Shown: one piece after another, positions 30,055 to 59,504 of the stretch
Layout: each line of letters opens with the position of its first letter
Numbering within the stretch: the first letter of the stretch is position 1
Source: Methanofollis sp. W23
GTDB lineage: Archaea > Halobacteriota > Methanomicrobia > Methanomicrobiales > Methanofollaceae
Assembly: GCF_017875325.1 (NCBI RefSeq)
Contig: NZ_JAGGMN010000001.1
Coordinates: 2,314,140 to 2,378,139, forward strand
DNA length: 64,000 nucleotides
Direction: 5' to 3'
The notes under the pieces: model-generated
Databases searched by the model: none
What the model was told of the DNA's origin: nothing
Seen by the model: the letters and a program-made list of their open reading frames with translations, nothing else
Program-made: the position numbers and the translations under genes

Positions 30055-30763
30055 CGGCACGTCATGGGCCCGAGATCGCCGGTCTAATACCCTGAACAAG
30101 AAGAGGTTCTCGCCTCACGTGAAGAGAGCGTCGTGGGGTCCGCCCCACCAGAAAATAAAAAAATGCTTCTCTGCTCTCCCGCACCCGGGAAGACCACCTC
30201 ACAAGAGAGTGACAACAATGTCTTCGTTTTTCTGTGGGGCGGCACCGATGATCGACGTCCCTTCCCACGCCCTCGCGCCAGGGGCCCTGCCCCCGGACCC
30301 CCAGGATGAAGAGAGGGCCGGGAAGGCAGGGGCGAGACCATGAAGAGGATAGTGGCGAGACCTACGTTCTTCACGCGAGGAGAGAGATCTCTCGTTCTAT
30401 TGCATTGTGATGACGACATTTCGTTCTTGAATGGACACCAGGGGGTGTGGATCCGTGCTCCCCCGTTAGAGCAGGACACCACATGGGATCACCACTTCGT
30501 TGCCGCCCCCGCCTCTCCCCACCGTCGGGGATCCTGAGGTGGCGCCCCAGGCGCGTACGGTACGGGAAGGCATAAGAGCAGAAACAACTGAGAAAGGGAC
30601 GCCGGTTGATCAACAGGGCAGATCCATCAGAGGATTTCATTACCCTCTTGCGCAGGGGAAAAACCCGGATCCCTCTCCTGATGGTGAGAGAGGCGGGACG
30701 GCGATGAAGCGATGTTCTCTCCTGCCGCCCTCTCGCACGCCAGGACGAAAGTCTCGCCCCCCC
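30055..30763. repeat. Spacer of dispersed GC-rich and B-type modules
   Basis: No gene supported. Bases 30110-30340 contain GC-rich modules (CGCCAGGGGCCCTGCCCCCGG at 30277-30297). Bases 30395-30500 match the inner part of the B-type end (GGTGTGGATCCGTG, AGCAGGACACCAC), also seen at 11590 and 37270. No GGCTYTGTAGAA terminus remains, so it is a decayed copy. Confidence 0.5.
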
Positions 30764-33700: not shown

Positions 33701-34630
33701 GAAGACCGGACGGCCGCCGATGAGATCGCGGATATATTTGTCCTTCGGGTGGACACCGGGCTCTTCCTCTTCATCGTCGTCAGAACTCGAAGCCCCGTCG
33801 ATGATCTGCTGGAGCCAGTCCCACCCCTCCATCTTCATCTTCTTGACGTTCTTCATCACCTTCGGGGCCTTGAGGGCCAACCCTTCGGCGACGACCAGGC
33901 ACATCCCGCCCCGCACCGTGTTCGTCTCCACCCGTTCCAGGTTGCGGTAGCCTGAGACCTCCTCGCGTTCGGTCGGTTCCCCGTCGATACAGACCGGGCA
34001 GTTCTTGATGATCAGCCTGATCTCGTCGTCGCTTGGCATGTACTGCATCGACTGGATGCCGTTGTACTGCTTGAGCTCCTCGACATAGCGCTCCACCTCT
34101 TCGGTCCTGGGCTTGTAGCGGTCGATCCCGATCTGCTGGCGGACATAGTCCCCGACCAGGACCGAGAGGGCCTGGGCCGTCCCGCCGGCAGAACGGATCG
34201 GGCCGGCATAATAGATCTTGAGATATTCGGTGCCGTCGTCGTTCTTGCCAAACCCGATCTTCGCGATCCCCTCGGTCGGCGCCGCCACCACCCCTTCGGT
34301 GAGGAGCCCCACCGCCGTCCTGATCGCGTGGTCGGCGACCTCTTCACGGGTCTCTTCCCCGAACATCTTTGCGGCAAAGTCGTCGCCGATCTTGAGGGAG
34401 ACCTCTTCACGGGACATCTGGGTTTCGAGTTCCCTGATCCGCGCGGCGACGCCTTTAATTCCAAGAAGGGCCTCGACCCGGTCGCCGAGGTCGTTGGCCA
34501 GCGGGATCTCGATCGTGGTGCGCGGGTCAAAGTCCTTGGCCCGCGCCTCCTCCGCCACCTTCAGGACTGTATTGAGGTTTTTCTCAAGCAGTTTGAAGTA
34601 TTCAGCCATCGACGGGGAAACCGCTACCAT
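30764..34630 (-). CDS. polC: DNA polymerase II (family D) large subunit DP2, with intein
   Basis: The 1288-residue precursor is DP2, the catalytic subunit of euryarchaeal DNA polymerase D, which works with the DP1 exonuclease subunit at the replication fork. Visible signatures are the N-terminal region ([20 protein letters not shown]), paired zinc ribbons ([32 protein letters not shown]), the catalytic [15 protein letters not shown] and a C-terminal zinc finger ([21 protein letters not shown]). Residues 874-1038 are an intein; without it the protein is 1123 residues, normal for the family. The start is the ATG at 34630, or possibly 34609. Long plus-strand open frames here are shadows. Confidence 0.96.
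31517..32011 (-). other. Mini-intein in the DP2 active-site motif
   Basis: The 165-residue insertion begins with Cys ([16 protein letters not shown]) after extein RRN. It has splicing block B ([12 protein letters not shown], with T..H) and block F ([18 protein letters not shown]), and ends CGQ before extein CDGDEDC. There is no LAGLIDADG or HNH endonuclease. The C-terminal residue is Gln rather than Asn and the penultimate residue is Gly rather than His. A Gln end is known for PolII-type inteins at this site. Splicing would be needed to reconstitute the DGDED catalytic residues. Confidence 0.88.
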
Positions 34631-36006: not shown

Positions 36007-37171
36007 CACGGGGAGATGCGGGCCGCAGGGTAAAAAATGATCCGGCCTCCCCGGGCAGAACCTGACTCTTTGAAGGGCGCGGGTCCTCTCCCCCTCGTTC
36101 GTGGAACATCCCTGGAGGAGGGGGCAATCTCCGATCAGCCGTGCGGCCGGGCAGGACGCACCCTCACCAGGATACGCATCGAGGTCATCCCAAAACTCAC
36201 CTGAGTTCCCCCTCTGCCAGAGATAAAGAAAGATGATAGTATCAAACTCTCCTGTCTTCGTAGCGTGAACATCCATTCATCGCCTCCTTCTATCTTTTCG
36301 CCGGGGTCCTGCCACCTGACCTCTATCTTCGTCGCGGGGGTTTCGCAGGGTCTCCCCCCGGCGAAAGAAACCAGGAAAACATTCATTAGTCTCTATGTGG
36401 GGCAGCACGTCGGATCATCATGCCTTCCCATAGCCTCCCGCCGGGGGCGCTGCCCCCGGACCCCCGGGAGGAAGATAGGGGAGGGAAGGCACATGTGATG
36501 ATCAGAAGAGGGGATGACCGTCCCCCCCTCTCTTCTGTAGGGGGACTGTGGGACAGCCAGCCACCCGCCGGAAGATCTGCGCTCTGAATTTCTGGAATGA
36601 AAGGTTTTGATCCAGACGAAGATTCATGTCCGGGATACTTTGGGGATATGCTCATCACCAAGAAGAGTACTACGGGCCCTCTGCATGAGCCCATTTCCGT
36701 GCATTCGCACCATATATCCGGTAAAATGTTCAAAATGTTCATCACAGCACTTTTTCCAAACATTCTTTGGGAAGACTACATTAGCCCCGAATGGCCGACT
36801 ATAGATACAGAGCACCATGAACATTGCAGAGATCAGACCTGGACAGGCTGGCGAGGTACAGCGACGGCACTGGAAAGAGTCTCCTTCTCTCTCCAGGGGG
36901 GTGAACGCGTGAGGTGACCCCCGCCGAAGGGCAGAGGTAGTCTTCTGTCCAGACCACACAGGTTCCTTGTGCATTTCAGGGAAAGACCTCTACCATACCA
37001 ATAGCATCCAGACTTCATTCAGGGAGGATGACGTCTGGAATATTACTCCATAAATCGCCAAATTTCATCATCCCTCACCCCCAGATTTCACGCACCTTGT
37101 CGGAATGAGAGGAGGGAGGACCGCATTTTTCCACGACCACCCCTGCCGGTCAGGTACATGCACGGCCTCTG
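36007..37171. repeat. Long spacer of dispersed modules
   Basis: No gene is supported in 1.2 kb. Bases 36150-36380 hold a C-type end (GAGGTCATCCCAAAACTC) and a GC core. Bases 36418-36480 hold CGCCGGGGGCGCTGCCCCCGG and neighbours. Bases 36585-36660 match the TTTCTGGAATGAAAGG...GGGATATGCTCATC module. Bases 36700-37080 contain no pattern I can place. Confidence 0.45.
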
Positions 37172-39858: not shown

Positions 39859-40850
39859 GGTTCTGTAGAATCGGGCATGAACCTCTGGCTCAAGCATACG
39901 GGATGAAAATATTTCGTCGCTTGATTGCTCTTTTTCAAGAGAGGAGAATCGGTGGGGATCGTGTTCCATCGCCGCCCCTCGGGTATCTTCGTCGTGGGGG
40001 TCCGGGGGGTTTCCCCCTGGTGCGAGATGGTGGGAAAGATTCTGCAATTAAGGGCGGCACATCTGATCGTCACGCCTTCCCACATCCTTGCGCCGGGGGC
40101 CCCGCCCCCGGATCCCCGGGATTGCGATTGGGTCAGGGAGGCAGAGGCCTGATCATTCGGAAGATGTATCCAAAATCTTCGTATCGGTCCAGAAGGTGTT
40201 TGGAGGTCTCAAACCATTACGGAAATCCGGAAAGGCGATCTTCTGGATCATTTTCATGGTAATCAGGGATGAACATGGGGTTCAAGGATATGGGATGAAA
40301 ATTTCATAGTGCAGGTCTCCGGCATGTGAGATGGTCCTTGATCCTTCTCCTCGTGATAGGGGAAAGGCCATATATCTCTTGACCTGCCGCCCCTCGGCCA
40401 TCTTCGTCTGTGGGGGTTCGGGGGCACGGCCCCCGGCGCGAGACGGCAGGGAAGTTTCTGCAATAGAGGGCGGCTTCTGATCTCGTGTCTTTCTTTCTCT
40501 TTCTGATCGCACGCCTTCCTCCATAAATCGCGCCGGGGGTTGCGACCCCCGGACCCCCACGTCAGGATTGGGATGGGAAGGCAGAAGGCCTGATGATCTT
40601 CAGGATCATTTTCATGGTAAACCATTCTCTTTTCATCGCTTCAACCCCTGTGAACCGAATCCATCGCCTTCCCTCATGCTCACGCCGGGGGGTAGCACCC
40701 CTGACCCCCCGGGATTGCGATTGGGACGGGAAGGCGGAGAGATAACCATGAAGAGGGGGTTGCAATCCGTCACCTATCTTCGCGCGGGGGGTTTCGGGGG
40801 GCGGCCAGCCTCCCGGCGAAGAGAACCATCAAGATGATTTCTACAAAGCC
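39859..40850. repeat. Large composite MITE-like element (about 1 kb)
   Basis: The left end is B-type (GGTTCTGTAGAATCGGGCATG, then CTCTGGCTCAAGCATACGGGATGAAAATATTTC). The right end is a reverse A-type (GAGAACCATCAAGATGATTTCTACAAAGCC). The interior contains several GC hairpin cores (for example CGCCGGGGGCCCCGCCCCCGG at 40091-40111 and GGGTTGCGACCCC near 40533), and CCTGATGATCTTCAGGATCATTTTCATGGTAA at about 40588 is nearly repeated at 40230-40260. It looks like nested insertions. No gene. Confidence 0.6.
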
Positions 40851-40881: not shown

Positions 40882-41916
40882 TCACCGCAGGTCCATCCGC
40901 GCGAACTTCACCCATGCGAGCCCGAAGAAAAACGCGGGCATGACGAGCATGGCGATCAGGGCGGCGAAGATATACCAGGAGTTCAGGAGGACCGAGAGGA
41001 TGGTTCCTGGACTATAGTCCTGCATGCCGTCGTCGGCGGGAGGAAGTGCCGTCACTGCAGCGGTGGCCGCATTATAGATCCACGCGGGCGAGATGATCAT
41101 CGTCGCGGTGATCAGGGTGTTGCGTGTGTTCCAGTAGGCCTCGTTCTCTGCATCATACTCATCGAGGAGAGCAAGACTCTCTCCATATGAGACATCCGTT
41201 GAATAGGCTTCTTCGGGACATTCCGGCGGTTCGCCAAGGACGGCATCGAGGACCAGGGGATTGTAGGCGAAGAACGGGAGGATGACGGCGACGAGGACGA
41301 GGACGATGAGAGAGGAGAGGAATGCGGTACCGCTCTCCGATGCGATCGTCGAGAAGAAGAGGGCGATCATGAAGAAGGTGGCGATGAAGAGGACGGTGAA
41401 GAGCCCGAAGATGAACGTCTGTATCGTCTGGATCGGGCTGAGGACAGTCCCCCCGATGAGCAGAATCGCACAGCTCACCCCGAGGGCGATCGCGACGGCG
41501 AGAGCGATGGCCGCGACCCCGCCGAGTGCCTTGCCGGTGATCACCTCGTCGCGATAGATCGGGTGGGAGAGGAGGATCTTCAGCGATTTACTCTCTTTTT
41601 CACGGGTCACGAGATCGAACCCCATCGCGATCCCCATGAAGGCGCTGAACGTCGCCGTCATCATCTCGATCAGATGGAAGATCACCGTTACCGAGGGTTT
41701 CGAGGAGGCCGTCGGATCGGGGGGTGCGTCGTCCCCGGAGACGACCGTCAGTGCGTCGTGGTATCTATCAAGGCTCTTGTGGAACTGGATCATGCCCGAG
41801 AATGCTCCCGTCCCGGTGATGATCAGGATGACGGCAAGGAGCGCGAGGAACCGTCTGCTCCTGAGATGGTCGCGGAACTCCTTGCCCGCGATGGTCCTGA
41901 GCGTCTGGACCCTCAT
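40882..41916 (-). CDS. ABC-2/NosY-like permease 8 (last gene of the array)
   Basis: The 344-residue permease has a cytoplasmic N-terminus (RTIAGKEFRDHLRSRRF), one helix, a short outer loop, a helix, the conserved inner segment EKESKSLKILLSHPIYRDEV, three more helices, a large outer domain (about residues 215-305) and a final helix. The outer domain has the shared SPxxxY motif (IISPAWIY) and is most like permease 6. It is the promoter-distal gene; its ATG overlaps the stop of permease 7. Its own last codons read RMDLR instead of REDIR, so it lacks the embedded ribosome binding site that every upstream member keeps. Confidence 0.88.
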   Translation of the reverse strand: MRVQTLRTIAGKEFRDHLRSRRFLALLAVILIITGTGAFSGMIQFHKSLDRYHDALTVVSGDDAPPDPTASSKPSVTVIFHLIEMMTATFSAFMGIAMGFDLVTREKESKSLKILLSHPIYRDEVITGKALGGVAAIALAVAIALGVSCAILLIGGTVLSPIQTIQTFIFGLFTVLFIATFFMIALFFSTIASESGTAFLSSLIVLVLVAVILPFFAYNPLVLDAVLGEPPECPEEAYSTDVSYGESLALLDEYDAENEAYWNTRNTLITATMIISPAWIYNAATAAVTALPPADDGMQDYSPGTILSVLLNSWYIFAALIAMLVMPAFFFGLAWVKFARMDLR

Positions 41917-42923
41917 CGAATATCCTCCCGTGCAAAGCGCACCCATGCCAGCCCGAAGAAGCCCGCCGGGAAGACGAAGAAGACGACGATGTGTCCGGCA
42001 AGCATCCCGAAGAGATCGGCAAGAGACTGATGACGCTCTTCTGATACATGGAGGGCGGTGACGGCACCGGTGAGTTTCTGGTAATTTTTGTCTGGCGAGA
42101 AGAGGGAAAGCGTATCCTTGACCGCCTGACGCTTCTGTTCGTGGGCGATCTTCTGTGTCCGGTATTCCTCCCACAGCCTATCTTTTTCGATCTGTTCCTC
42201 AGGACTCAACATCCTGTCACTTGAGGGCGGTCCGGGGGGGTAGTCGCCGATGAGCAGATTGAGTGCCGGGGTGGAGATGATCAGCGACGTCAGGGACGAG
42301 AGGGTGATGAAGACGATGAACGCCGAGACCAGGGCGCTCCCGCTGTTTGGGGCGACTGTCGAGAAGAAGAGGGCCAGGACGAAGAAGGAGAAGACCATGA
42401 GAAATGAGAGCCCGGTGAAGAGGAGGATCTGCACGCTCTCCTCGAACGAAGGGACGGCCCCGAAGATGAGGAGGACGGCAAGGGCGAGGAGAAGCACGAT
42501 CCCCATCGCGAGGGCGATTGCGCCAGCGCCGCCGAGTGCCTTGCCGGTGATCACCTCGTCGCGGTACACCGGATGAGAGAGGAGAAGTTTGAGGGATTTG
42601 CTCTCTTTTTCCTTCGTCACGAGGTCAAACCCCATCGCGATCCCGAGCACCGCCCCGAGTGTCCCGATGAGAGAACCCATCTGGGCGAAGGCAGAGAGGG
42701 GGGAGGGTTTTGTGCCGATGGCCCCGGCCTGGAGTTCTTCTCCGCTCACGTCCACCTGGGCCTGGTTGTAGTCGTCCAGGTCGTTCTGGTACTGGACCAT
42801 CCCGGCGACAAGACCGGTGAGGCCGATGATGAGGAGGATCCCGAAGAGGATATGGAACCGTCTGCTCCTCACATGGTCGCGGAACTCCTTGCCCGCGATC
42901 ACGTTGAGGGTCTGGACCCTCAT
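41913..42923 (-). CDS. ABC-2/NosY-like permease 7
   Basis: The 336-residue paralogue has the shared topology and the inner motif KEKESKSLKLLLSHPVYRDE. Its outer loop (about residues 222-300) is distinctive: charged, with PPGPPSSDRMLSPEEQIEKD and the conserved LFSPDKNYQKL. It ends in FAREDIR, whose codons contain GGAGG seven bases before the ATG of permease 8. It starts at an ATGA overlap with permease 6. Confidence 0.88.
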   Translation of the reverse strand: MRVQTLNVIAGKEFRDHVRSRRFHILFGILLIIGLTGLVAGMVQYQNDLDDYNQAQVDVSGEELQAGAIGTKPSPLSAFAQMGSLIGTLGAVLGIAMGFDLVTKEKESKSLKLLLSHPVYRDEVITGKALGGAGAIALAMGIVLLLALAVLLIFGAVPSFEESVQILLFTGLSFLMVFSFFVLALFFSTVAPNSGSALVSAFIVFITLSSLTSLIISTPALNLLIGDYPPGPPSSDRMLSPEEQIEKDRLWEEYRTQKIAHEQKRQAVKDTLSLFSPDKNYQKLTGAVTALHVSEERHQSLADLFGMLAGHIVVFFVFPAGFFGLAWVRFAREDIR

Positions 42924-47244: not shown

Positions 47245-48326
47245 CGAATGTCCTCTCGTGCAAACCGCACCCAGGCGAGTCCGAAGAAAGCTACTGGTAA
47301 GACAAGCATGGCGATGATGTTCTTTGCAAGGGCTCCGAGCAGTCCGACGAAGATCGCAAGCCCGCTCTCAGGGAGGGTTGCGTAAAATTCCTTGGTCTCT
47401 TCCCAGTCCAGGTAATACGCTCCGGAGACCATTGCTGCCGTGCCGCGTGGATCTGCCACCGCCCTCACCATCTCCATATAATTTCTTGTGGGGGAGAGGA
47501 GGTCGGTCGTGTCGTGAAGACCCTGCACTTTTATCTGGTACATTCTATTTTTCTCCTGGTACTCGTCCCAGACTCGTCTATGTTCCTCTACGTCGGCGAA
47601 GGTGGAGGGGCCACCCATCTGGGGGGGTTCTGGCCGGTCACCAAAGAGGGCATTGATCAGGGCACCATTCCCGGCAAGGGACGGCAGGAAGATCCCGAGG
47701 ACGATAAAGATTGCAAGGGATCCGATGAGGGCGTTCCCGCTGTTTCGGGCGACTGTCGACATGAAGAGAGCGATAGCGAAGAAGGTGAACACCCCAAGGA
47801 AGGAGATGACGCCGAAGAGCAGGATCCGGACTGTTTCCTCAAAGTTCGGGACGATCCCGAAGACAAGCATCAGGGCAAGGGAGACGAGGAGCATGATCCC
47901 CATCGCGAGGGCGATTGCGCCAGCGCCGCCGAGTGCCTTGCCGGTGATCACCTCGTCGCGGTAGACCGGGTGGGAGAGGAGGATCTTAAGCGATTTGCTC
48001 TCCTTCTCCGCGGTGATGAGGTCAAAACCCATCGCGATCCCGAGCACCGCCGCGACTGTCGAGAGCAGATAACCTATCCTGTTGAAAGCCTCTAGGACTG
48101 ATGGTTTCCCCTCATAATAATGGTATGATAAGTCATCTTCTCCTTCTGAAGCGGCCACCTGCATCTCATTATACCGTTCCAGGCCCTCCTGGTACGAAAA
48201 CGCTCCGTCGATCAGTCCGGCGACCGCAATGATGAGCAAGATCGCAAAAAGAGTTCGGAATCTCTTGCTCCTGACCTGGTCGCGGAACTCCTTGCCCGCG
48301 ATGATCCTGAGGATACCGGTTCTCAT
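47241..48326 (-). CDS. ABC-2/NosY-like permease 2
   Basis: The 361-residue paralogue starts MRTGILRIIAGKEFRDQVRSKRF, with TAEKESKSLKILLSHPVYRD as the inner motif. The outer loop is distinct (RPEPPQMGGPSTFADVEEH, then DLLSPTRNYMEMV). The last codons read CGAGAGGACATTCGATGA, so the ribosome binding site for permease 3 is GAGAGGA rather than GGGAGGA. It starts at an ATGA overlap with permease 1. Confidence 0.88.
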   Translation of the reverse strand: MRTGILRIIAGKEFRDQVRSKRFRTLFAILLIIAVAGLIDGAFSYQEGLERYNEMQVAASEGEDDLSYHYYEGKPSVLEAFNRIGYLLSTVAAVLGIAMGFDLITAEKESKSLKILLSHPVYRDEVITGKALGGAGAIALAMGIMLLVSLALMLVFGIVPNFEETVRILLFGVISFLGVFTFFAIALFMSTVARNSGNALIGSLAIFIVLGIFLPSLAGNGALINALFGDRPEPPQMGGPSTFADVEEHRRVWDEYQEKNRMYQIKVQGLHDTTDLLSPTRNYMEMVRAVADPRGTAAMVSGAYYLDWEETKEFYATLPESGLAIFVGLLGALAKNIIAMLVLPVAFFGLAWVRFAREDIR

Positions 48327-49435
48327 CGAATGTCCTCCCGCATGAACCTGACCCATGCGAGCCCGAAGAAGGCGGCAGGGATCACGAGGAGTGCGATAAC
48401 GTTCTTTGCAAGGGCTCCCATGAGACCCCCGAGGATCGCAAGCCCGCTCTCAGGGAGGTCTTCGTAGATGTCTGGAGAATAACTCCCGGCATTCTGAACT
48501 GCAATGGAAATTCTTGGTTCGGTCACGGCCATCGCCATCTGCTGGTAGCTGTGGGAGGGCGAGAGCAGGTTGACGGCATCGGTGAAGGCACGTCTCTTCT
48601 CCCAGTAGGCGTCCGACTTTTCTCTGTACTCTTCCCAGGCCAGATCAACCTCAGAGGGTTCTCCCACTTCTCCTGTCGACGAGGCTGTCGAGGAACTTGA
48701 GACCGCGTATGAGCTGAGATATGGTCCATGTATGTGAGGGGGTTCAGGTGGTTCTCCGATGACGGCGTTCATCACACTCTCATTGGCGGCGATGGCCGGA
48801 ATGAGGGTAGAGAGTACGATGAATATGATGAGTGTGTAGATGAGAGCGTTGCTGCTGTCTTTTGCGACCGTGGACATGAAGAGGGCGATCGCGAAGTACG
48901 AGAAGATGAGCAGGAACGAGAGTCCTCCGAAGAGCAGGATGCGTACGCTCTCGTCAAGGTTCGGGACGATCCCGAATATGAGGATGATCGCAAAGGAGAG
49001 GACGAGCACGATTCCCATTGCAAGTGCGATGGCGGCGATCCCGCCGAGGGCCTTGCCATTGATCACCTCGTCGCGATAGATCGGGTGAGAGAGAAGGATC
49101 TTGAGGGACTTGCTCTCTTTCTCGCGCGAGATGAGGTCAAACCCCATCGCACACCCGAGGACGACCCCGACGGTGGTGATGAGCATGGACATCTTGAAGA
49201 AGGCCGAGAGGATGGATGGCTTCCACCCAAAGTAACTGGGCATTATCTCGTCGTCCGAGACCTGGGCCAGGCGGTCGTTGTAGTCGTCGATCTGCTTGTT
49301 GTACTGGATCGAGCCGTCGATGAGGCCGACGACGGCGATGATCAGGAATATCCCGAGGAGGATGTGGAACCTCCTGCTCCTGATATGGTCGCGGAACTCC
49401 TTGGCGGCGATGACCCTGAGGCCCCCGCTCCTCAT
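48323..49435 (-). CDS. ABC-2/NosY-like permease 1 (first of the array)
   Basis: The 370-residue permease directly follows the ATPase gene and overlaps it by four bases (ATGA). Residues 1-232 differ from permease 9 in the second operon at about five positions, while the outer loop after GEPPE (about 233-320) diverges sharply and is longer. The two resemble each other again at the C-terminus (VIPAAFFGLAW.RFMREDIR). This mosaic suggests recent duplication or gene conversion of the membrane part with selection or exchange in the loop. Confidence 0.9.
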   Translation of the reverse strand: MRSGGLRVIAAKEFRDHIRSRRFHILLGIFLIIAVVGLIDGSIQYNKQIDDYNDRLAQVSDDEIMPSYFGWKPSILSAFFKMSMLITTVGVVLGCAMGFDLISREKESKSLKILLSHPIYRDEVINGKALGGIAAIALAMGIVLVLSFAIILIFGIVPNLDESVRILLFGGLSFLLIFSYFAIALFMSTVAKDSSNALIYTLIIFIVLSTLIPAIAANESVMNAVIGEPPEPPHIHGPYLSSYAVSSSSTASSTGEVGEPSEVDLAWEEYREKSDAYWEKRRAFTDAVNLLSPSHSYQQMAMAVTEPRISIAVQNAGSYSPDIYEDLPESGLAILGGLMGALAKNVIALLVIPAAFFGLAWVRFMREDIR

Positions 49436-50346
49436 GTCATCCCCTCACCCACCTCATAATATGAGAGGAATACGTCCTCGATGTCAGGGTGTTCTGCCTC
49501 CAGGCTTCTGATGGCGACCCCTGCTTTGGCGAGGGTGTCTGCGAGTTCGTCCCTGATGTCGACAGTGGCGACGAGTCGTGCACGGTGGCGGTTCTCGGCG
49601 AACTCTGCGGCGACGAGCGCCGGACTCTGGAGGTCCGGCATCGGGGTGCGGGTCTCGATGTGGATGACGACTTTTTCGTCACCGCCGACGCGGGCGAGTT
49701 CGTCCCAGGTGCCGTGGGCGACGAGTTTGCCGTGGGCGAGGATCCCTGCCGAAGTGCAGACCTTGCTCACCTCAGAGAGGATGTGGGATGAGACCAGGAC
49801 GGTGGTGCCCTGGTCTGCCACGTGTCTGATGATCCTCCGATAGTCTGCGACGCCCTGGGGGTCGAGGTTGGCGGTGGGCTCGTCGAGGATGATGGCCCTG
49901 GGATGGTTGATGAGCGCCTTGGCGATCCCGAGCCGCTGTCTCATCCCCTTCGAGAACCCGCCGACCTCCTTGGTGACCCCTTCGAGCCCGACGAGTGCGA
50001 GGAGTTCTTGAATCCGTTCTTTGCGCTCCTTCCCCATGCCATAGAGTTTCGCCGAGTACTCGAGGTTCTCCTCGGCGGTGAGCGTCGGGTAGAACCCGAC
50101 ATCTTCGGGCATGTATCCGATCTTCTTCTTCACCTCGATGGGGTGGGTGGCGACCTCGAGGTCGTCGATATAACAGGCGCCTGAGGTGGGCTCGATGAGC
50201 CCGGTGAGCATCAGGATGGTGGTGCTCTTCCCGGCGCCGTTCGGCCCGAGGAGGCCGAAGACCTCACCCTCGGGCACCTCAAGGCAGAGGTCGTCGACGG
50301 CAGGAACGCCGTGGTAGACCTTGCAGAGATGTTCACAACGTATCAT
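49432..50346 (-). CDS. ABC transporter ATPase of the eight-permease operon
   Basis: The 304-residue nucleotide-binding protein has Walker A (GLLGPNGAGKST), a Q-loop region (GYMPEDVGFYPTLTAEENL), signature GFSKGMRQRLGIAKAL, Walker B with catalytic Glu (RAIILDEPTANLD) and the H-loop (VLVSSHILSEV). A C-terminal extension of about 85 residues follows, with HPDIEDVFLSYY as in NatA-type ATPases. It is the only ATPase in an operon with eight permeases, so it must be shared or used in turn. It differs from the second operon's ATPase at about four internal residues and in the last seven. Confidence 0.95.
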   Translation of the reverse strand: MIRCEHLCKVYHGVPAVDDLCLEVPEGEVFGLLGPNGAGKSTTILMLTGLIEPTSGACYIDDLEVATHPIEVKKKIGYMPEDVGFYPTLTAEENLEYSAKLYGMGKERKERIQELLALVGLEGVTKEVGGFSKGMRQRLGIAKALINHPRAIILDEPTANLDPQGVADYRRIIRHVADQGTTVLVSSHILSEVSKVCTSAGILAHGKLVAHGTWDELARVGGDEKVVIHIETRTPMPDLQSPALVAAEFAENRHRARLVATVDIRDELADTLAKAGVAIRSLEAEHPDIEDVFLSYYEVGEGMT

Positions 50347-50390
50347 GGTCCTTCACTCCAATAGTCTGGTTTGAAGATCCATAGAGGTCC

Positions 50391-50426
50391 ATTTATAAAA
50401 TAGGTTCTGTGACAATCCTCTACATG
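50391..50426 (-). promoter_or_regulatory. Shared ABC-operon promoter block, copy 1
   Basis: On the minus strand: TGTAGAGGATTGTCACAGAA, then CC and TATTTTATAAAT. The TATA box (TTTTATAA) lies 45-55 bases before the ATPase ATG. The same 36-bp block is upstream of the other two ABC operons; here the TTGTGCCACAA palindrome is changed to TTGTCACAGAA. Confidence 0.7.
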
Positions 50427-50472
50427 TCAGCGCAATCCTGTACGGGGCGATGAGAAGAAAAAATAATTTTTT

Positions 50473-50814
50473 GGCTCTGTAGAAATCCTCTTGATCGTTC
50501 TCTTCGCCGGGGGGTTGGCCACCCCCCGGTCCCCCCGCGTGAAGATAGGTGGCAGACAGCAATGTCCTCCTTATAGTCGTTGATGGTGCCTTCCCGGCCC
50601 TATCGTGATCCCGGACCCCCACGACGAAGATAGGCGGGGGCGGCGATGAAACAAGGTTCCCGCCGGTTCTCCATTCTTGAAAAAGAGAGAGAAAGCAAGC
50701 GACGAGATTTTTTCATCGCGTATGGGGTCCGGGGATAGCGTCCCTGGCCAAAGGGGTAGGAAGGCGGGGGACACCCGTCTCCCCCACACAATAGGCGAGG
50801 GTTTCTACAGAGCC
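50473..50814. repeat. MITE-like element with the cleanest terminal inverted repeats
   Basis: The left end GGCTCTGTAGAAATCCTC and the inverted right end (GAGGGTTTCTACAGAGCC) match at 17 of 18 positions. The element is 342 bp and has no coding potential. The left side continues TTGATCGTTCTCTTCGCCGGGGGG, then a hairpin core. Flanks do not show an obvious target-site duplication. It sits just upstream of the main ABC operon promoter. Confidence 0.78.
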
Positions 50815-51254
50815 GAAGTTTTTGTCACTCTCTCTCGCACCTGGGGCACTGCCCCCGGACCCCCGGGATGGCGATAGGGGGAGGATAGCGTCTTTTATAA
50901 TCACGAAGGAGGAATTACTGTCCTCCTCCCTATCTTCTGCGGAGGGAACGGGGGGCGGCAGCCCTCCGGCGGAAGATACCCATTCAAAATTCTTGGAAAG
51001 GAGTGTTTCAATTCAGGACTCAGAGGGGTTTGGGATATGCTCATTAAGAGATATTCTACAAATCCGGTAATTTTCATCTGGTATGCGTGAGCCAGGGGGT
51101 CATGCCAGATTCTAAAGAGTTGTATAAGCGTAGACCAGGAGAGATCAAGAAGAGGGATGGTCGTCCCGTATGCGTTTTTTGTGCGCAAAGGACGCGAGGG
51201 AGGCGGTCGGCCCCCCTCATTCGTGCCCTGGATAAGATCCACCAGAGCAGAGGT
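50815..51254. repeat. Further repeat modules between the ABC operons
   Basis: Bases 50830-50875 hold a GC core; 50975-51060 the CAAAATTCTTGGAAAGG...GGGATATGCTC module; and 51070-51118 a reverse B-type end (ATTTTCATCTGGTATGCGTGAGCCAGG ... CATGCCAGATTCTAAAGAG). No gene is supported. Confidence 0.5.
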
Positions 51255-52703
51255 TCAACGGCGCTGGTATTTCCTGAAGTAATACCAGACCCCGCCAGCG
51301 ATCCCGACCAGCAGGAGGACACCCAGGACGGCCGCAAAGGACTGTTCCTTCACGACGATCCTGAAGTCCTCCTCCTGTTCACCCTGGTCTGAGATCACCT
51401 TGACGCTGACCTTGTAGTCAGAGGCGACGATGTTGGAGGGTGGGGCTACCGTCACCTTCACGGTGTCGCGCTCTCCTGGCTGGAGACTCGTGATGTTGGT
51501 CGGAGTCACCGTGGCGCTCCATCCCTGGGGGGCCATCACTTCAAACCCGATACCGGTGAGCGCACCCGCCGTGCCGGCGTTCCTCACCCTGAGATCGAAG
51601 GTGACCGTGCCGCCCATGTCGGTCTCATAACTGTAGCGGTCGGCCGAGACCCGCATCTCATAACTCCCACGGATCTTTGCGGTCAGTTCGTCTGAATACT
51701 CACCTGCCGAGGAACCGATGAGGGCCTGGAACGAGTAGTCCCCTGTGCCGGTACCGTACGGGGGGATCGCCTCAAGATAGAGTTCCTTCTCCTCGCCGGC
51801 ACGCAGGAATATCTCTGAGAGATCGCCCGGGGCATTGGCCGACTCCTTGTAGCGTGCGTACCAGCCTTCAGGGAGGTCTTTTGTGGAGAGGAGGTAGTTG
51901 TCGTCACCGGTACCCGCGTTTTTCAGGTTGAGTTCGAAGATCGGGTTGCGCCCCACCGGCGAGGTGATGATCGGGGACTTGATGGTCATCTCGGCGGCGT
52001 ACGGCGACTTCTCCAGCATCACGGTCCCGGCGTCGGTGGTGATCCCGCACTTCACCTTGACGTCTTTCTTCTCGGCTCCCTTGTACCCGGCCTTCTCGAT
52101 GACGAGGTCATAGATTCCCTGGGGGATGCCTGTGCTGATCTTGCCGTCTGCGGTGGTCGTCACCTTGTCGAAGGGCTCGGCATGTTTGTCTTCATAGACC
52201 TCGACGGTCGCGCCCTTCACCTTCTCGCCGTCCTTGTCGGTGACGGTGAGGTCGAGGGTGCCGAGTTCATTAGCATGGGTCTTGGAGATGTCCACGTGGA
52301 GCCAGATCGACCCGGTGCCGACATGGGCCTTCAGCGGGTACTCCCCGACCCTGGTGTCGGCCGCGGTCTCGACCTCCAGGGTGACGGTCTTTGTCGCACC
52401 CGGTGGGATGGAGACCTTGTTCACCTCAGTCTCGCCGTCGACGAAACGCATCTCCCAGTCTCTGCACCCGACAAAGGACTCCGTCCACATCTCCATATGG
52501 TCTGAATTTCCGTTGTTGGTCACGGCGAGCGAGAAGGTCGCCGTCTCCCCGGCCTCGATCACCTGGCCGGGGAAGTCGCAGTGAATGGAAACGGTTCCGC
52601 CTGCCGCATCATCCAGGGCCGCCGCAGGAGCGGCAACCAGGAGGGGCAGGAGCATGAGGACGGCGCAGAAGGCTGCAAGCCTCTGTTCAATTTTTTCTTT
52701 CAT
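51255..52703 (-). CDS. NEW3-domain membrane protein of the second ABC operon
   Basis: The 482-residue protein has a signal peptide (ending AAPAAALDD), an N-terminal CARDB/NEW3-like beta domain (residues 38-140, GETATFSLAVTNNGNSD), a carboxypeptidase-regulatory-like domain (about 148-228, VKGATVEVYED ... IEKAGYKGAEKK), two NEW3-type domains (about 240-445, FELNLKNAGTGDDNY and FDLRVRNAGTAG) and one C-terminal helix with YYFRKYQRR inside. Most of it faces outward. Its ATG overlaps the stop of permease 9, whose REDIR codons give its GGAGG site. It may bind substrate or surface structures for the transporter. Confidence 0.85.
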   Translation of the reverse strand: MKEKIEQRLAAFCAVLMLLPLLVAAPAAALDDAAGGTVSIHCDFPGQVIEAGETATFSLAVTNNGNSDHMEMWTESFVGCRDWEMRFVDGETEVNKVSIPPGATKTVTLEVETAADTRVGEYPLKAHVGTGSIWLHVDISKTHANELGTLDLTVTDKDGEKVKGATVEVYEDKHAEPFDKVTTTADGKISTGIPQGIYDLVIEKAGYKGAEKKDVKVKCGITTDAGTVMLEKSPYAAEMTIKSPIITSPVGRNPIFELNLKNAGTGDDNYLLSTKDLPEGWYARYKESANAPGDLSEIFLRAGEEKELYLEAIPPYGTGTGDYSFQALIGSSAGEYSDELTAKIRGSYEMRVSADRYSYETDMGGTVTFDLRVRNAGTAGALTGIGFEVMAPQGWSATVTPTNITSLQPGERDTVKVTVAPPSNIVASDYKVSVKVISDQGEQEEDFRIVVKEQSFAAVLGVLLLVGIAGGVWYYFRKYQRR

Positions 52704-53794
52704 CTAATATCCTCCCGCATAAATCTGATCCATGCGAGCCCGAAGAAGGCGGCAGGGATCACGAAGAGGGCGAGAATGTTCTTTGCAAGGTCTCCTATGA
52801 GATCTCCGAGGACTGCGAGTCCGCTCTCAGGGGGCTCGTCATACGGGTCATTAAAGCCGTAACTCTGGAGGGTGACGGCAAGTTGTGGGTTGGTCAGGGC
52901 CATCGCCATCTCCTGGTAGTTGTAGGAGGGAGAGATCAGGTTGACGGTGTCGGTGAAGGTATGTCTCTTCTTCCAGTATGCATCTGACTTCTCCTCGTAC
53001 TCTTCCCAGGCCAGATCGATCTCAGAGGGCTCTTCCAGGCCCTCGACCGGTGCTGAGATGACTACGCCATTGGCAGAAAATTTATCATCCATATTAGGGA
53101 ATTCTGGGGGTTCTCCGATGACGGCGTTCATCACACTCTCATTGGCGGCGATGGCCGGGATGAGGGTAGAGAGTACGATGAAGATGATGAGGGTGTAGAT
53201 GAGTGCGTTGCTGCTGTCTTTCGCGACCGTGGACATGAAGAGGGCGATCGCGAAGTATGAGAAGATGAGCAGGAACGAGAGTCCTCCGAAGAGCAGGATG
53301 CGTACGCTCTCGTCAAGGTTCGGGACGATCCCGAAGATGAGGATGATCGCAAAGGAGAGTGCGAGCACGATTCCCATTGCGAGTGCGATGGCGGCGATAC
53401 CGCCGAGGGCCTTGCCATTGATCACCTCGTCGCGGTACACCGGGTGGGAGAGGAGGATCTTGAGGGACTTGCTCTCTTTCTCGCGCGAGATCAGGTCGAA
53501 TCCCATCGCACACCCGAGAACGACCCCGACGGTGGTGATGAGCATGGACATCTTGAAGAAGGCCGAGAGGATGGAGGGCTTCCACCCGAAGTAACCGGGC
53601 ATTATCTCGTCGTCCGAGACCTGGGCCAGGCGGTCGTTGTAGTCGTCGATCTGCTTGTTGTACTGGATCGAGCCGTCGATGAGACCGACGACAGCGATGA
53701 TCAGGAAGATCCCGAGGAGGATGTGGAACCGCCTGCTCCTGATATGGTCGCGGAACTCCTTGGCGGCGATGACCCTGAGCCCTTCGGTTCTCAT
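52700..53794 (-). CDS. ABC-2/NosY-like permease 9 (second operon)
   Basis: The 364-residue permease is almost identical to permease 1 over residues 1-232, then has a different outer loop (DDKFSANGVVISAPVEG, then VNLISPSYNYQEMAMAL). It ends FMREDIR with an embedded GGAGG that now serves the NEW3-domain gene rather than another permease. It overlaps the upstream ATPase stop by four bases. Confidence 0.9.
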   Translation of the reverse strand: MRTEGLRVIAAKEFRDHIRSRRFHILLGIFLIIAVVGLIDGSIQYNKQIDDYNDRLAQVSDDEIMPGYFGWKPSILSAFFKMSMLITTVGVVLGCAMGFDLISREKESKSLKILLSHPVYRDEVINGKALGGIAAIALAMGIVLALSFAIILIFGIVPNLDESVRILLFGGLSFLLIFSYFAIALFMSTVAKDSSNALIYTLIIFIVLSTLIPAIAANESVMNAVIGEPPEFPNMDDKFSANGVVISAPVEGLEEPSEIDLAWEEYEEKSDAYWKKRHTFTDTVNLISPSYNYQEMAMALTNPQLAVTLQSYGFNDPYDEPPESGLAVLGDLIGDLAKNILALFVIPAAFFGLAWIRFMREDIR

Positions 53795-54705
53795 GCGGCC
53801 TCCTCGGTGGCATGGTAGTATGAGAGGAAGACATCCTCGATGTCCGGGTGTTCTGCCTCCAGGCTCCTGATCGCGACGCCTGCTTTGGCGAGGGTGTCTG
53901 CAAGTTCGTCCCTGATGTCGACGGTGGCGACGATGCGTGCACGGTGTCGGTTCTCTGCAAACTCCGCGGCGACGAGCGCCGGACTCTGGAGGTCCGGCAT
54001 CGGGGTGCGTGTCTCGATGTGGATGACGACCTGCTCGTCACCGCCGACGCGGGCGAGTTCGTCCCAGGTGCCGTGGGCGACGAGTTTGCCGTGGGCGAGG
54101 ATCCCAGCCGAGGTGCAGACTTTACTCACCTCAGAGAGAATGTGGGATGAGACCAGGACGGTGGTGCCCTGGTCGGCGACCTGCCTGATGATCCTCCGAT
54201 AGTCGGCGACGCCCTGGGGGTCGAGGTTGGCGGTGGGCTCGTCGAGGATGATGGCCCTGGGATGGTTGATGAGCGCTTTGGCGATCCCGAGGCGCTGCCT
54301 CATCCCCTTTGAGAACCCGCCCACTTCCTTGGTGACCCCTTCGAGCCCGACGAGGGTAAGAAGTTCTTGAATCCGTTCTTTGCGCTCTTTCCCCATGCCA
54401 TAGAGTTTTGCCGAGTACTCGAGGTTCTCCTCGGCGGTGAGCGTTGGGTAGAACCCGACGTCTTCAGGCATGTAGCCGATCTTCTTCTTCACCTCGATCG
54501 GGTGGGTGGCGACCTCGAGGTCGTCGATATAACAGGCGCCCGAGGTAGGCTCGATGAGCCCGGTGAGCATCAGGATGGTGGTGCTCTTCCCGGCGCCGTT
54601 CGGCCCGAGGAGGCCGAAGACCTCACCCTCGGGCACCTCAAGGCAGAGGTCGTCGACGGCGGGAACGCCGTGGTAGACCTTGCAGAGATGTTCACAACGT
54701 ATCAT
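53791..54705 (-). CDS. ABC transporter ATPase of the second operon
   Basis: The 304-residue protein has the same Walker A, signature, Walker B and H-loop motifs as the ATPase at 49432-50346. By eye there are only four internal changes (A/T, H/Q, K/Q, L/I) plus a different last seven residues (HATEEAA instead of EVGEGMT). Such similarity between adjacent operons indicates recent duplication or ongoing gene conversion, and implies the two ATPases could serve each other's permeases. Confidence 0.95.
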   Translation of the reverse strand: MIRCEHLCKVYHGVPAVDDLCLEVPEGEVFGLLGPNGAGKSTTILMLTGLIEPTSGACYIDDLEVATHPIEVKKKIGYMPEDVGFYPTLTAEENLEYSAKLYGMGKERKERIQELLTLVGLEGVTKEVGGFSKGMRQRLGIAKALINHPRAIILDEPTANLDPQGVADYRRIIRQVADQGTTVLVSSHILSEVSKVCTSAGILAHGKLVAHGTWDELARVGGDEQVVIHIETRTPMPDLQSPALVAAEFAENRHRARIVATVDIRDELADTLAKAGVAIRSLEAEHPDIEDVFLSYYHATEEAA

Positions 54706-54787: not shown

Positions 54788-56106
54788 TTGAGATCATCCA
54801 GAAACTTCCCGACCCTGCCATCGCGGGACCGGGCGATGGAGGGGAGTTGAGAGACTTCTGTCTCTTCGTTGCGCACCCATGCATCCATCGCCTCCCTATC
54901 CCCTCGCGCCTGGGGTGGCCGGATCCCCTGGCAGGAGATATCTGTTCAGAATTTCTGGAGGGAAACGCTTCGTTTCGAGGAGATCTCCAGGCCTCAGGGC
55001 TTTGTAGAATCCTCACCTATTTCGTGGTGTGAGCGCGACCGGACCACCTTCCTTCCCATCGTCTCTTGCCGGGAGCGCGGTGTTCCCGGCGAGAGCATGA
55101 GGGAAGGCGGTTCGGTTACACTCGTATTTGCGGGAGACGAGGGTTTCTACAAAGCCGATGATTTTTTTTCTTCAGGTTTGCATGAGAGTTCGAACCCGCC
55201 ATTCCCCGTTGAAACCGATACGCAGAGGATAGAAAATTCCTCAGATGGATCTGCCTGCCACCCCCACTCGTCGAATCTTCACTGCCATCTCGCGCCGGAG
55301 GCGCACCCCCTGACCTCGGGGATGGCGATAGGAGTGGGAAGGCAGAATAGATGACCACGACGGAGGAGGTGCCGTCCACGACCTATCATGTCGTGGGGGT
55401 TCGAGGGGCGGGCACGTTCCCCGCCAGAGAGAGTTATCCAGAGGGTTTACCATGAACATGATCCTGACTTTCAATTCTGGAGTTATGGATGAGAATTCGA
55501 ACACACAGATCTCCCTCATAACTACTATGCGGAGAAAAAATCGCCCTCAGAACGATCAGGCCCTCTGCCTTCTCAGCTTTATCTTCGTCGTGGGGGACGT
55601 GGGGCAACGCCTCCGGCGTGAAGAGGGGGGAAGGCATGTCGATCATACGTGCCGCCCTCATCGTAGAGCCCTTCCTGCCGTCTCGCGCCGGGGGGTTGCA
55701 CCCCCCGAAACCCCCCCCACGACGAGGAGAAGGAGGGAGGCGAAGTGAACTCGAACTCCACCGATTCTTCTGTCTAGATATGAGACAGCAGGTGACAAGA
55801 AATTTTCATCCAGGGTGCTTGAGATGTGTTCTCGTCTCGTGAGCAATTCTACAGAGCCTGAATATGTTCATTGTCTGGCTTTTTGGCTCTGTAGAATCTC
55901 TCACCCATTATGGGTGCACGCGTGATTCTCCCGCCTCCCCTCATGAAGCGCCCCCGGGGCGCTGCCCCCGGATCTCCGGAATGAAGATTGAGCCGGGAAG
56001 GCATATTCGAAATCCATGAAGAGGGATTGTCGTCCACGACCTATCGTGTCGCGGGGGTTTGGGGGGCGGCCGGCCCCCCGCCAGAAAGAGTTATCCAGAG
56101 GATTGA
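54788..56106. repeat. 1.3-kb spacer made of MITE-like copies and modules
   Basis: One short copy spans 54998-55156 (GGCTTTGTAGAATCCTC ... GAGGGTTTCTACAAAGCC). A right end lies at 55846-55858 (TTCTACAGAGCC, preceded by reverse B-type sequence) and a left end starts at 55885 (GGCTCTGTAGAATCTCTC). GC hairpin cores are at 55690-55710 and 55950-55970. The TTCAGAATTTCTGGAGGGAAACGC module is at 54942-54966. No gene is supported. Confidence 0.6.
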
Positions 56107-56250
56107 ACCATGATAAAGATCCTCCACCGATCGATCAGGCCGCTGAAAACGAGGGAGAGGAGGAATATAGGATCCTGAACCATCGGGTCCAGACTGGTTC
56201 TCCGAACTCCTTGCCTGCGATGGTCCGGTCCTGATGGTCTCGGTCCTCAT
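56107..56250 (-). pseudogene. Remnant of an eleventh ABC-2 permease
   Basis: ATG at 56250 overlaps the stop of permease 10 and begins MRTETIRT like other family members. The frame then shifts; the IAGKEFGEPVWTRWFRIL sequence (IAGKEFRDHVRSRRFxIL in relatives) is readable in another frame, and a further shift gives VFSGLIDRW, matching the end of helix 1. Nothing of the rest of the gene is left. This shows that the third operon once continued with more permeases. Confidence 0.75.
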
Positions 56251-57338
56251 CGAATGTCCTCCCGTACGAAACGAATCCATGAAAGCCCGAAGAAAGCCGC
56301 GGGGAAGACAAGGATAGCGACGATGTTGCTTGCAAGGCTCCCGAGCAGAGCGAAGAGCGCGGAGAGACCATCTTCAGAGACGATTTCACCGTCTGAGACG
56401 GTCGCCGCGACAAGTCCTGGTCTGACCACTGCGAAGGTGAGTTTCTCGTAATTTCGGTCAGGGGAGATGAGGTGGAACGTATCCTCTATCGCCTGTCTCT
56501 TCCCCTGGTAGACCTTTGACTCTATTTCATACTCCTCCATCCTTTCCTCGAACTCTCCCGGCGCCATCCCTTCGTCCGACACGCCCATGATCCCGCTCCC
56601 GCTGTTCGGCCCGGTCATGAAACTATAGTCATATGTCACTCCCGGAAACTCCGGCGGCTCGCCGATGAGGAGGGTGACCCCCGCGCTCGACGTGGCCAGA
56701 TAGGTGGCCGAGGAGAGGGTGATGAAGACGATGAGCGTGGACACCAGGGCGCTCCCGCTTGTCTTCGTGACCGTCGAGAAGAAGAGAGCGAGGGCGAAGA
56801 AGGAGACGATCATCAGGAACGAGAGCAGTCCGAAGATCAAGATCCGTATCGACTCGTCAAGATCGGGCACGACCCCCGACATGAGCAGCACCGCACACGA
56901 AACCCCGACGAGCAGGAAGATTGCGAGGGCGATTGCCGCGGCGCCGCCGAGTGCCTTGCCGGTGATCACCTCGTCACGATAGATCGGGTGAGAGAGGAGG
57001 ATCTTGAGTGACTTACTCTCCTTCTCTCTGGTCACGAGGTCGAATCCCATCGCGATCCCGGTGACGGCACCAAGAGAGGAGAAAATCAGTGCCATCTCGT
57101 AGAAGGCAAAGAGCGGTGATGGTTTCGTGATGAGCGGGGTCTGTGCAAGTTCTTCATCACCGACCGCGGTGCGGGCCTGGTTGTAGTCGTCCAAGTCTTT
57201 ATGATACTGGACCGTCCCTGAGGCCAGACCGACGGCGGCGATGACAAGCATGATCCCGAGGAGACAGAGAAACCGCCTGCTCCTGACGTGATCATGGAAC
57301 TCCCTGGCGGCGATGACCCTGAGGGCCTCGGTTCTCAT
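56247..57338 (-). CDS. ABC-2/NosY-like permease 10 (third operon)
   Basis: The 363-residue permease is intact, with IAAREFHDHVRSRRF, the inner REKESKSLKILLSHPIYRDE and an outer loop (about residues 225-320) containing FHLISPDRNYEKL. It is closest to permease 3 of the main array. The upstream ATPase is destroyed, so it could work only with an ATPase from one of the other two operons. It keeps the embedded GGAGG in its REDIR codons although the downstream gene is only a fragment. Confidence 0.88.
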   Translation of the reverse strand: MRTEALRVIAAREFHDHVRSRRFLCLLGIMLVIAAVGLASGTVQYHKDLDDYNQARTAVGDEELAQTPLITKPSPLFAFYEMALIFSSLGAVTGIAMGFDLVTREKESKSLKILLSHPIYRDEVITGKALGGAAAIALAIFLLVGVSCAVLLMSGVVPDLDESIRILIFGLLSFLMIVSFFALALFFSTVTKTSGSALVSTLIVFITLSSATYLATSSAGVTLLIGEPPEFPGVTYDYSFMTGPNSGSGIMGVSDEGMAPGEFEERMEEYEIESKVYQGKRQAIEDTFHLISPDRNYEKLTFAVVRPGLVAATVSDGEIVSEDGLSALFALLGSLASNIVAILVFPAAFFGLSWIRFVREDIR

Positions 57339-57604
57339 GCGTTATCCCCCGTGGCGTGAGAGGATGAGAAAAATACGGCCTCGATGTCAGGGTGTTCTGT
57401 TTCGAGACTCCTGGTTGCGCCTCCTGCTTCTGCAAGAGTGTTGGCACATTTGCCCCAGGTGCCATGGACAAGGATGCCTGCCTGGGTGCAGACCTTGCTC
57501 ACCTCGATGAGGCCAGAGGCTCCCTCCTCGGGCACCCCCGGGCGGAGGCCTTCGACGGCATGAACACTGTGATAAGCCTTGTAGAGATATTCGCAACATA
57601 TCAT
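57335..57604 (-). pseudogene. Gutted ABC ATPase gene (internal in-frame deletions)
   Basis: The 89-residue frame aligns with the two 304-residue ATPases in three pieces: the N-terminus (MICCEYLYKAYHSVHAVEGL, against MIRCEHLCKVYHGVPAVDDL), a middle piece (EVSKVCTQAGILVHGTW) and the C-terminus (TLAEAGGATRSLETEHPDIE). The Walker A, Q-loop, signature, Walker B and H-loop segments are all missing, so it cannot bind or split ATP. The frame, start, promoter block and ATGA overlap with permease 10 are preserved, possibly because translation through it still feeds the permease. Confidence 0.85.
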
Positions 57605-59191: not shown

Positions 59192-59504
59192 CTACACGAA
59201 AGATCTGAAGACAGTTCTTTTGTGATCCCCTCAGGAAAAAGGCACGAAATTCTAAAAAAATGGTTCTGTAGAAACCCTCACGTACCGTGAGGAGAATGTG
59301 TGTCACCCCACCTTCCTGGAGTCTCCTGCCGGGGGCGCTGCCCCCCGACCCCAGGGATGAAGATAGGGGTGGGAAGGCACATTCGATGAACCTGAAGAGA
59401 AATATGACTCCCCCATCCATCGCTTGCGCGGAGGGTCCGGGGAGGGAGCGGCCAACCCCCCGCCAGAGAGATCCATTTCCAGGATCTCTTCAGAGTCTAG
59501 TTTT
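59192..59504. repeat. Spacer with A-type repeat left end
   Basis: GGTTCTGTAGAAACCCTC starts at 59263 and leads into a GC core (GCCGGGGGCGCTGCCCCCCGACCCC at 59330-59352) and the usual flanking module. No matching right end was found before thiC begins at 59505. No gene. Confidence 0.55.

Follow-up and report, generated by a model that had tools for sequence, protein, structure and literature searches.

Gene conversion as the probable source of a shared engine beside private outer loops in two ABC-2 operons of Methanofollis

Introduction

Why should two neighbouring operons carry a nearly identical ATPase and a nearly identical N-terminal permease part, and then diverge abruptly in an outer loop of the same permease? 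This question is raised by a 64,000-nucleotide (nt) stretch of the Methanofollis sp. W23 genome (contig NZ_JAGGMN010000001.1, positions 2,314,140 to 2,378,139), referred to here as the window, which holds two ATP-binding cassette (ABC) operons of the ABC-2 type; all permease and ATPase genes of interest lie on its minus strand (Table 1). Operon 2 comprises ATPase A2, permease P9 and a gene for a NEW3-domain protein. Operon 1, downstream of it, consists of ATPase A1, in which a profile scan found a PF00005 match, followed by eight tandem permeases, P1 to P8, and ends at position 40882. The original prediction, made from the letters of the window, described the two operons and missed seven further permeases in operon 1, the NEW3 gene of operon 2 and a third locus at 56247-57604. 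Below, W denotes the window genome, numbers such as G001 the other genomes, and up and dn the upstream and downstream operon copies; P10 is the permease of the third locus.

We consider it highly probable that the pattern has the following origin. An ATPase-permease(-NEW3) operon would have been duplicated in tandem long ago, and homologous gene conversion between the copies would then have overwritten the ATPase and the first ~231 permease codons in more than one lineage. Three stretches would have kept an identity specific to their position: the permease from codon 232 on, with its outer loop and last helix; the DNA ahead of the ATPase; and, in some genomes, the tail of the ATPase.

The window operons form a mosaic with a break at synonymous sites

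A1 and A2 differ at four internal residues (117, 175, 225 and 258) and at six of the last seven, and P1 and P9 differ at five of the first 232 residues (3, 4, 67, 119 and 145) and diverge abruptly from about residue 233, just as the original prediction had counted. The DNA follows the same course: in 75-nt steps from the ATPase start, identity between the operons is 38-60% upstream, 91-99% in the ATPase, 72% in the ATPase tail and 93-99% in the N-terminal part of the permease, after which it falls to 40% and 60-89%. Counted in 15-codon blocks of 45 nt, nucleotide differences between P1 and P9 number 0-5 per block as far as codon 225 and then rise to 16-26 per block in codons 226-255. Uniform divergence that included synonymous sites, named beforehand as the mark of an old duplication without conversion, was not found, as synonymous divergence (dS) is 0.20 in codons 1-231 and 0.60 from codon 232 to the end (28.5/163.7 versus 37.9/91.8 synonymous differences; Fisher p = 4.6e-5 on rounded counts). 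A strict maximum chi-square (max-chi2) test, restricted to codons that specify the same amino acid and run with 2000 permutations, placed the break at P1 codon 229; the observed value was reached by 27/2000 permutations for the permease alone and by 71/2000 for ATPase plus permease. Because the N-terminal part was more alike than the loop in 108/108 same-genome permease pairs (permeases below 290 amino acids (aa), namely contig-end fragments and one partial gene in G007, being excluded), this contrast alone was not used as evidence of conversion.

The engine groups by genome and the loop by position

We compared the locus across 12 Methanofollis genomes, of which W is in 2 contigs, G001 and G004 are single contigs, and G007 and G010 are in ~360 and ~240. 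A search at family level brought in no genomes beyond these 12. Strong ATPase matches were present in 10/12. Two neighbouring operons in the same order were found in seven genomes (the window genome, G001, G002, G004, G007, G008 and G010), and a single ATPase-permease-NEW3 operon in three (G003, G005 and G009). One further, more distant ATPase match was present in each of G009 and G010, and a partial third match in G002, where a contig ends.

Trees of 17 copies were built for three segments: the ATPase, permease codons 1-231, and codons 232 to the end. In the ATPase tree, copies paired by genome, with paired support values of 98/99 for W, 100/99 for G007 and 94/95 for G001, and permease codons 1-231 again paired the two W copies (98/98) and the two G007 copies (100/100). 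From codon 232 on, copies instead grouped by operon position between species, uniting W_up with G007_up (100/100) and W_dn with G001_dn and G007_dn (100/99). The opposite groupings were rejected by approximately unbiased (AU) tests; placing W_up with W_dn in the tree of codons 232 to the end gave p = 0.0003. Third codon positions alone still paired the W copies (97/99 for the ATPase, 96/96 for the permease N-terminal part) and repeated the G007 pairing. Moreover, both flanks of each operon match the G001 and G007 flanks at the same position. Gene conversion predicts just this arrangement, in which a stretch grouped by genome is bordered by sequence grouped by position. Since the loop halves are orthologous by position and the same order recurs in 7/12 genomes, the duplication predates these species.

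Synonymous divergence tells the same tale, and does so without recourse to the draft genomes. For the ATPase, dS is 0.47 between the downstream copies of W and G001 and 0.23 between the two W copies; for the loop half, the corresponding values are 0.38 and 0.60. In G004, the copies differ by a dS of 0.16 in both the ATPase and the NEW3 gene, and by 0.34 / 0.63 in the permease between them. The copies share exact runs of 1287 nt in G007 and 958 nt in G010, each within diverged surroundings; as both genomes are many-contig drafts, these runs were given less weight. In G007 the max-chi2 value was reached by 0/2000 permutations. In G007 the upstream type is found at both ATPase tails (YHTTEEAA) and both permease starts (MRTEGLRVI); W_dn and G001_dn retain the other type (tail YE.GEGMT, start MRSGGLRVI), so copying in G007 probably ran from upstream to downstream.

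As read from the sequences, then, the mosaic, its break at synonymous sites, the disagreement among the segment trees and the orthology of both flanks are established, and at least in the window genome and in G007 the engine, meaning ATPase and N-terminal permease part, appears to have been overwritten and the loop not. The loop may escape conversion for two reasons, namely that its versions have diverged too far to pair and that the copies would lose their distinctness if it were overwritten.

Several observations weigh against this account. The G001 copies do not pair in the tree of permease codons 1-231, although their pairing was not rejected (AU 0.158), and the downstream clade of W, G001 and G007 is weak at third positions alone (65/59). 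Support from the strict max-chi2 test is modest in the window pair, and the permease-only break is non-significant in G001 (353/2000) and G004 (184/2000). In addition, dS between W and G007 in the converted ATPase tract (0.41-0.47) exceeds that of the NEW3 gene (0.247). Simple copying within each genome does not predict such an excess, unless opposite parental types became fixed in the two lineages or one of them imported DNA.

Alternative explanations

High identity of the ATPases and of the N-terminal permease parts would also be expected if the operon had been duplicated recently in the window genome and the loop alone had then changed rapidly. The original prediction had named recent duplication and gene conversion side by side. 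Conversion is strongly supported by segment trees, dS and flank orthology; recent duplication fails, as 7/12 genomes have the two-operon order, position-wise orthology of the loop halves extends across species, the loop has diverged at synonymous sites too, and the region upstream of the ATPase is only 38-60% identical. We regard it as very improbable. The converse proposal is an old duplication without conversion, in which strong constraint on the proteins has kept ATPase and membrane part alike. The ratio of nonsynonymous to synonymous change (omega) is indeed as low as 0.07 in the second transmembrane helix (TM2) and the cytosolic segment, but protein constraint does not hold synonymous sites, and these are closer within the window (ATPase dS 0.23) than to the same-position G001 copy (0.47), with the W copies pairing at third positions in both segments. 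Constraint by itself therefore seems just as improbable.

A subtler possibility is that recent duplicates received different loops from other array members or from other species. Joins of this kind do exist in the array, in a P2/P3 fusion of G007 and in a switch of relatedness near codon 200 of W_P7 (see below). However, position is also followed by the sequence upstream and, in W and G001, by the end of the ATPase and the beginning of the permease, so that loop replacement would need several separate events per genome; among the 27 permeases of four genomes, no donor of the P1 or P9 loop was nearer than the same-position copy. We judge loop replacement unlikely. Repeats blended or mis-joined in assembly could likewise produce a mosaic, and the exact repeats of more than 900 nt occur in the fragmented G007 and G010 assemblies. 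Yet the window genome is in 2 contigs and its copies differ at sites scattered through the tract, unlike blending, and in the single-contig G001 and G004 the ATPase copies are nearer to each other than to those of the window, which leaves an artefact with hardly any probability. Old duplication with conversion of the engine thus remains the reading we adopt.

A NosY-like permease with an enlarged outer loop

Five of the ten window permeases were scanned with PF12679 (ABC2_membrane_2) and scored 151.8, 150.7, 146.3, 127.3 and 132.4 bits, against a curated cut-off of 27.2; P10 was scanned against NCBIfam only. An AlphaFold model of P1 (mean predicted local distance difference test score, pLDDT, 78) has NosY (7o12_E) as its best fold match, with a Z score of 23.7 and a root-mean-square deviation of 2.6 over 246 aligned residues, followed by ABCG exporters at a Z of ~19, and NosY likewise ranks first by sequence among solved structures (E 1.9e-4). 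Model and sequence together place P1 codons ~226-340 outside the cell, between TM5 and TM6, in a loop that is modelled with low confidence at 236-258, is helical at 262-314 and has a variable end.

The ten window permeases share a mean identity of 78% in TM2 and the cytosolic segment and of 26-39% in the TM5-TM6 outer loop. Codons 42-84, which form the first outer loop, are variable too, at 36% mean identity; the claim that diversification is confined to the exposed loop is therefore right for the P1/P9 pair only, and does not extend to the family of ten. In 13 orthologue pairs, omega was 0.49, 0.30 and 0.30 in three loop segments, as against the 0.07 given above, with no sign of positive selection on the loop at segment level. 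At this resolution the pattern points to relaxed or fast change in the protein sequence of the loop, and not to positive selection.

NosDFY is the ABC complex for maturation of nitrous-oxide reductase, and NosD is its outside protein. The Methanofollis operons resemble NosFY in the permease fold and in having ATPase and permease side by side with the gene for an outside protein. They differ from NosDFY in the enlarged TM5-TM6 loop (P1 has 370 aa overall, NosY 276), in the permease array, and in a NEW3-domain protein where NosD would be. Membership of NosDFY was rejected: the NosY-like fold was found (in P1, the permease modelled), but a NosD-type protein was not found in operon 2, whose third gene matches NPCBM_assoc (NEW3) and related immunoglobulin-like families. 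The gliding-motility system GldAF was also set aside, with GldF at 33.6 bits against a cut-off of 288.5 and GldA at 212.8 against 402.6.

Tentatively, and with somewhat more doubt than confidence, we propose as the best-supported view of function that the engine is common to all copies and that each permease with the shared ATPase acts as a NosFY-like pump or mechanical transducer, in which the enlarged TM5-TM6 loop would decide the cargo or the outside partner. If specificity were borne by the loop, operon 1 would offer one ATPase eight loop types. The NEW3-domain protein of operon 2 is a possible outside partner, and by analogy the NEW3 protein at the usual operon end may occupy the place of NosD.

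Signs of recombination in the permease array

The ten window permeases are all open frames, 336-376 aa in length. Within operon 1, neighbouring genes overlap by 4 nt (ATGA) at seven of the eight joins, the exception being the 31-nt gap between P5 and P6. After P1, P2, P3, P4, P6 and P7, the conserved last codons (REDIR) carry GGGAGG or GAGAGG just before the next ATG, a putative ribosome-binding site. By loop orthology, array order is common to W, G001 and G007: W holds P1-P8, G001 holds P1, P2, P3, P4, P7 and P8, and G007, over two contigs, holds P1, a P2/P3 fusion, P4-P7 and the start of another permease at a contig end. G004 has two full ATPase-permease-NEW3 operons at the corresponding site (locus L041), with no permease array there. 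In the decayed third operon of the window, permease P10 remains intact, and G001 has an orthologue of it. Of the operon's own ATPase only an 89-aa remnant is left, so P10 would have to rely on an ATPase from another operon.

The G007 fusion gene (G007_8077; L043:8077-9207) is P2-like to codon ~130 and P3-like from about codon 141. In 20-codon steps, it is 90-98% identical to W_P2 in six of the first seven, and 88-97% identical to W_P3 in nine of the last twelve, with 43-83% in the remaining three. The join, at codons ~121-140, falls where the best-conserved segment of the family ends, a segment that is cytosolic by topology, as expected for unequal crossing-over there. Together with the switch of nearest relative near codon 200 of W_P7, the fusion gives signs of recombination beyond P1 and P9, to be read with caution as G007 is a draft genome. 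P3 and P7, 78% identical in the N-terminal part and 47% in the loop, were considered as a second converted pair and rejected, since each N-terminal part has a closer relative in its own orthologue (82.5% and 88.1%). The two genes are closer to each other in codons ~121-160 only, so conversion is suspected in a short tract at most. Loop dS between W and G001 is 0.11 for P7 and 0.05 for P8, against 0.616 for NEW3, which is only suggestive of loop exchange with the G001 lineage; W and G001 are 89-91% identical in the genes that adjoin the array, which puts the choice of baseline in doubt. The P7 gene of G007 (L044:177-1241) is 88% identical to that of the window (41913-42923) in the N-terminal part and 73% in the loop, where G001 reaches 94%, and its loop is possibly a replacement.

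Order-wide, a match at E <= 1e-90 was present in 40/80 genomes, and among the matches listed, two adjacent ones at that threshold occurred in 0/68 order genomes outside the genus. Loci were compared for L001-L019 and L036 of 37; the other 17 are distant ABC ATPases (27-42% identity) from bacteria and one Lokiarchaeal-type genome. Two of the compared loci (L015 and L016, from Methanoregula or unclassified Methanomicrobiales) have two permeases in one operon, and arrays longer than two permeases were seen only in Methanofollis. A NEW3 protein ends the operon in 11 of the 16 loci L004-L019, the remaining five having no match there or a contig end.

A bolder picture, which we think rather unlikely, is that of a modular exporter array: one ATPase type maintained by conversion would serve at least eight permeases through an interchangeable engine, and outer loops would be shuffled within and between species like swappable cassettes, by gene conversion and by unequal crossing-over at the cytosolic segment (codons ~100-140) and at the joins that bear ribosome-binding sites. 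Mixed permease dimers around one ATPase would enlarge the repertoire further.

Other features of the window

The gene for DP2, the large subunit of DNA polymerase II (30764-34630, minus strand), has its catalytic domain split into two matched stretches, and residues 925-1008 give sub-threshold Intein_splicing and Hint matches; from its sequence, the insert looks like a small intein. A dispersed, mostly intergenic G+C-rich repeat with a GGGGGCGCTGCCCCCGGACCCCC core occurs in both orientations (families D8, D10 and D13-D20, plus inverted pairs), and is possibly a terminator-like element or one resembling repetitive extragenic palindromic (REP) sequences.

Table 1. Coordinates of the ABC-2 genes and of repeat examples in the window
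Feature	Position	Strand	Remarks
ATPase A2, operon 2	53791..54705	-	304 aa; codons 1-285 within putative converted tract; tail position-specific
Permease P9, operon 2	52700..53794	-	364 aa; ABC2_membrane_2; codons 1-231 putatively converted; outer loop and last helix private
NEW3-domain (NPCBM_assoc) protein, operon 2	51255..52703	-	third gene of operon
ATPase A1, operon 1	49432..50346	-	304 aa; twin of A2
Permease P1	48323..49435	-	370 aa; array member 1; twin of P9 to codon ~231; model has NosY fold
P1 codons 232-341	48413..48742	-	TM5-TM6 outer loop, apparently not converted; topology from model and sequence
Permease P2	47241..48326	-	
Permease P3	46114..47244	-	
Permease P4	45014..46117	-	N-terminal DNA 81% identical to P1 and P9
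Permease P5	43971..45017	-	
Permease P6	42920..43939	-	31-nt gap before gene
Permease P7	41913..42923	-	nearest relative switches near codon 200
Permease P8	40882..41916	-	array end
Permease P10	56247..57338	-	third, decayed operon
Third-ATPase remnant	57335..57604	-	89 aa; most of ATP-binding domain gone; no Pfam match
G+C-rich repeat, examples	11744-11822, 30260-30338, 36423-36501, 40075-40153, 50822-50900, 55935-56013, 59311-59389		

Discussion

Antigenic-variation cassettes such as pilE/pilS and vlsE are homologous copies with a conserved framework and a variable exposed part, reshaped by recombination. Unlike them, the window permeases are full-length frames and not silent partial cassettes, and the conversion proposed here makes the framework uniform and leaves the variable part as it is. 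With ten open frames of 336-376 aa and loop omega values of 0.49, 0.30 and 0.30 that lack diversifying selection at segment level, cassette-based antigenic variation was rejected as a description of the locus.

A closer parallel comes from methanogens themselves. In Methanomicrobiales and Methanococcales, mtrA-1 and mtrA-2 are old duplicates whose soluble domain is homogenised in each genome by gene conversion, whose transmembrane domain differs, and whose trees pair by species (PMC4632066). Here too one part of old methanogen duplicates is homogenised and another kept different; unlike in mtrA, it is the ATPase gene and permease TM1-TM5 that are homogenised and the outer loop that differs, beside a tandem permease array. 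A survey of recurrent concerted evolution gives 26 prokaryotic genes with this history, and all seven archaeal genes in its Table 2 are from methanogens (PMC6053082). The words transporter and permease are absent from the main text of that survey, and the Methanofollis locus is not among the archaeal genes in the passage on Table 2 (PMC6053082). The process is the same; its time depth here is within one genus. In the affected segment the paralogues are closer to each other than to same-position copies (in G001 for the ATPase only, 94/95), the duplication is older than the species, with synteny, and the breakpoint is sharp at synonymous sites as well, if modest in the window by the strict test. 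We found no report of the Methanofollis locus in the literature searched on ABC-2 permeases of Methanofollis or Methanomicrobiales or on concerted evolution. As domain-limited conversion is known from mtrA in the same order, what is new here is clearly the case and not the process, and the transporter array that hosts it looks unusual.

For those who reconstruct such operons, it is a warning that trees from the ATPase or from the permease N-terminal part misstate their history. The case would add a transporter to the short list of archaeal genes with recurrent concerted evolution. More generally, the locus is a natural experiment that separates the part which paralogues may share, the ATPase and TM1-TM5, from a private part, the TM5-TM6 outer loop, and it thereby marks that loop as the place to probe the function of NosY-like archaeal permeases.

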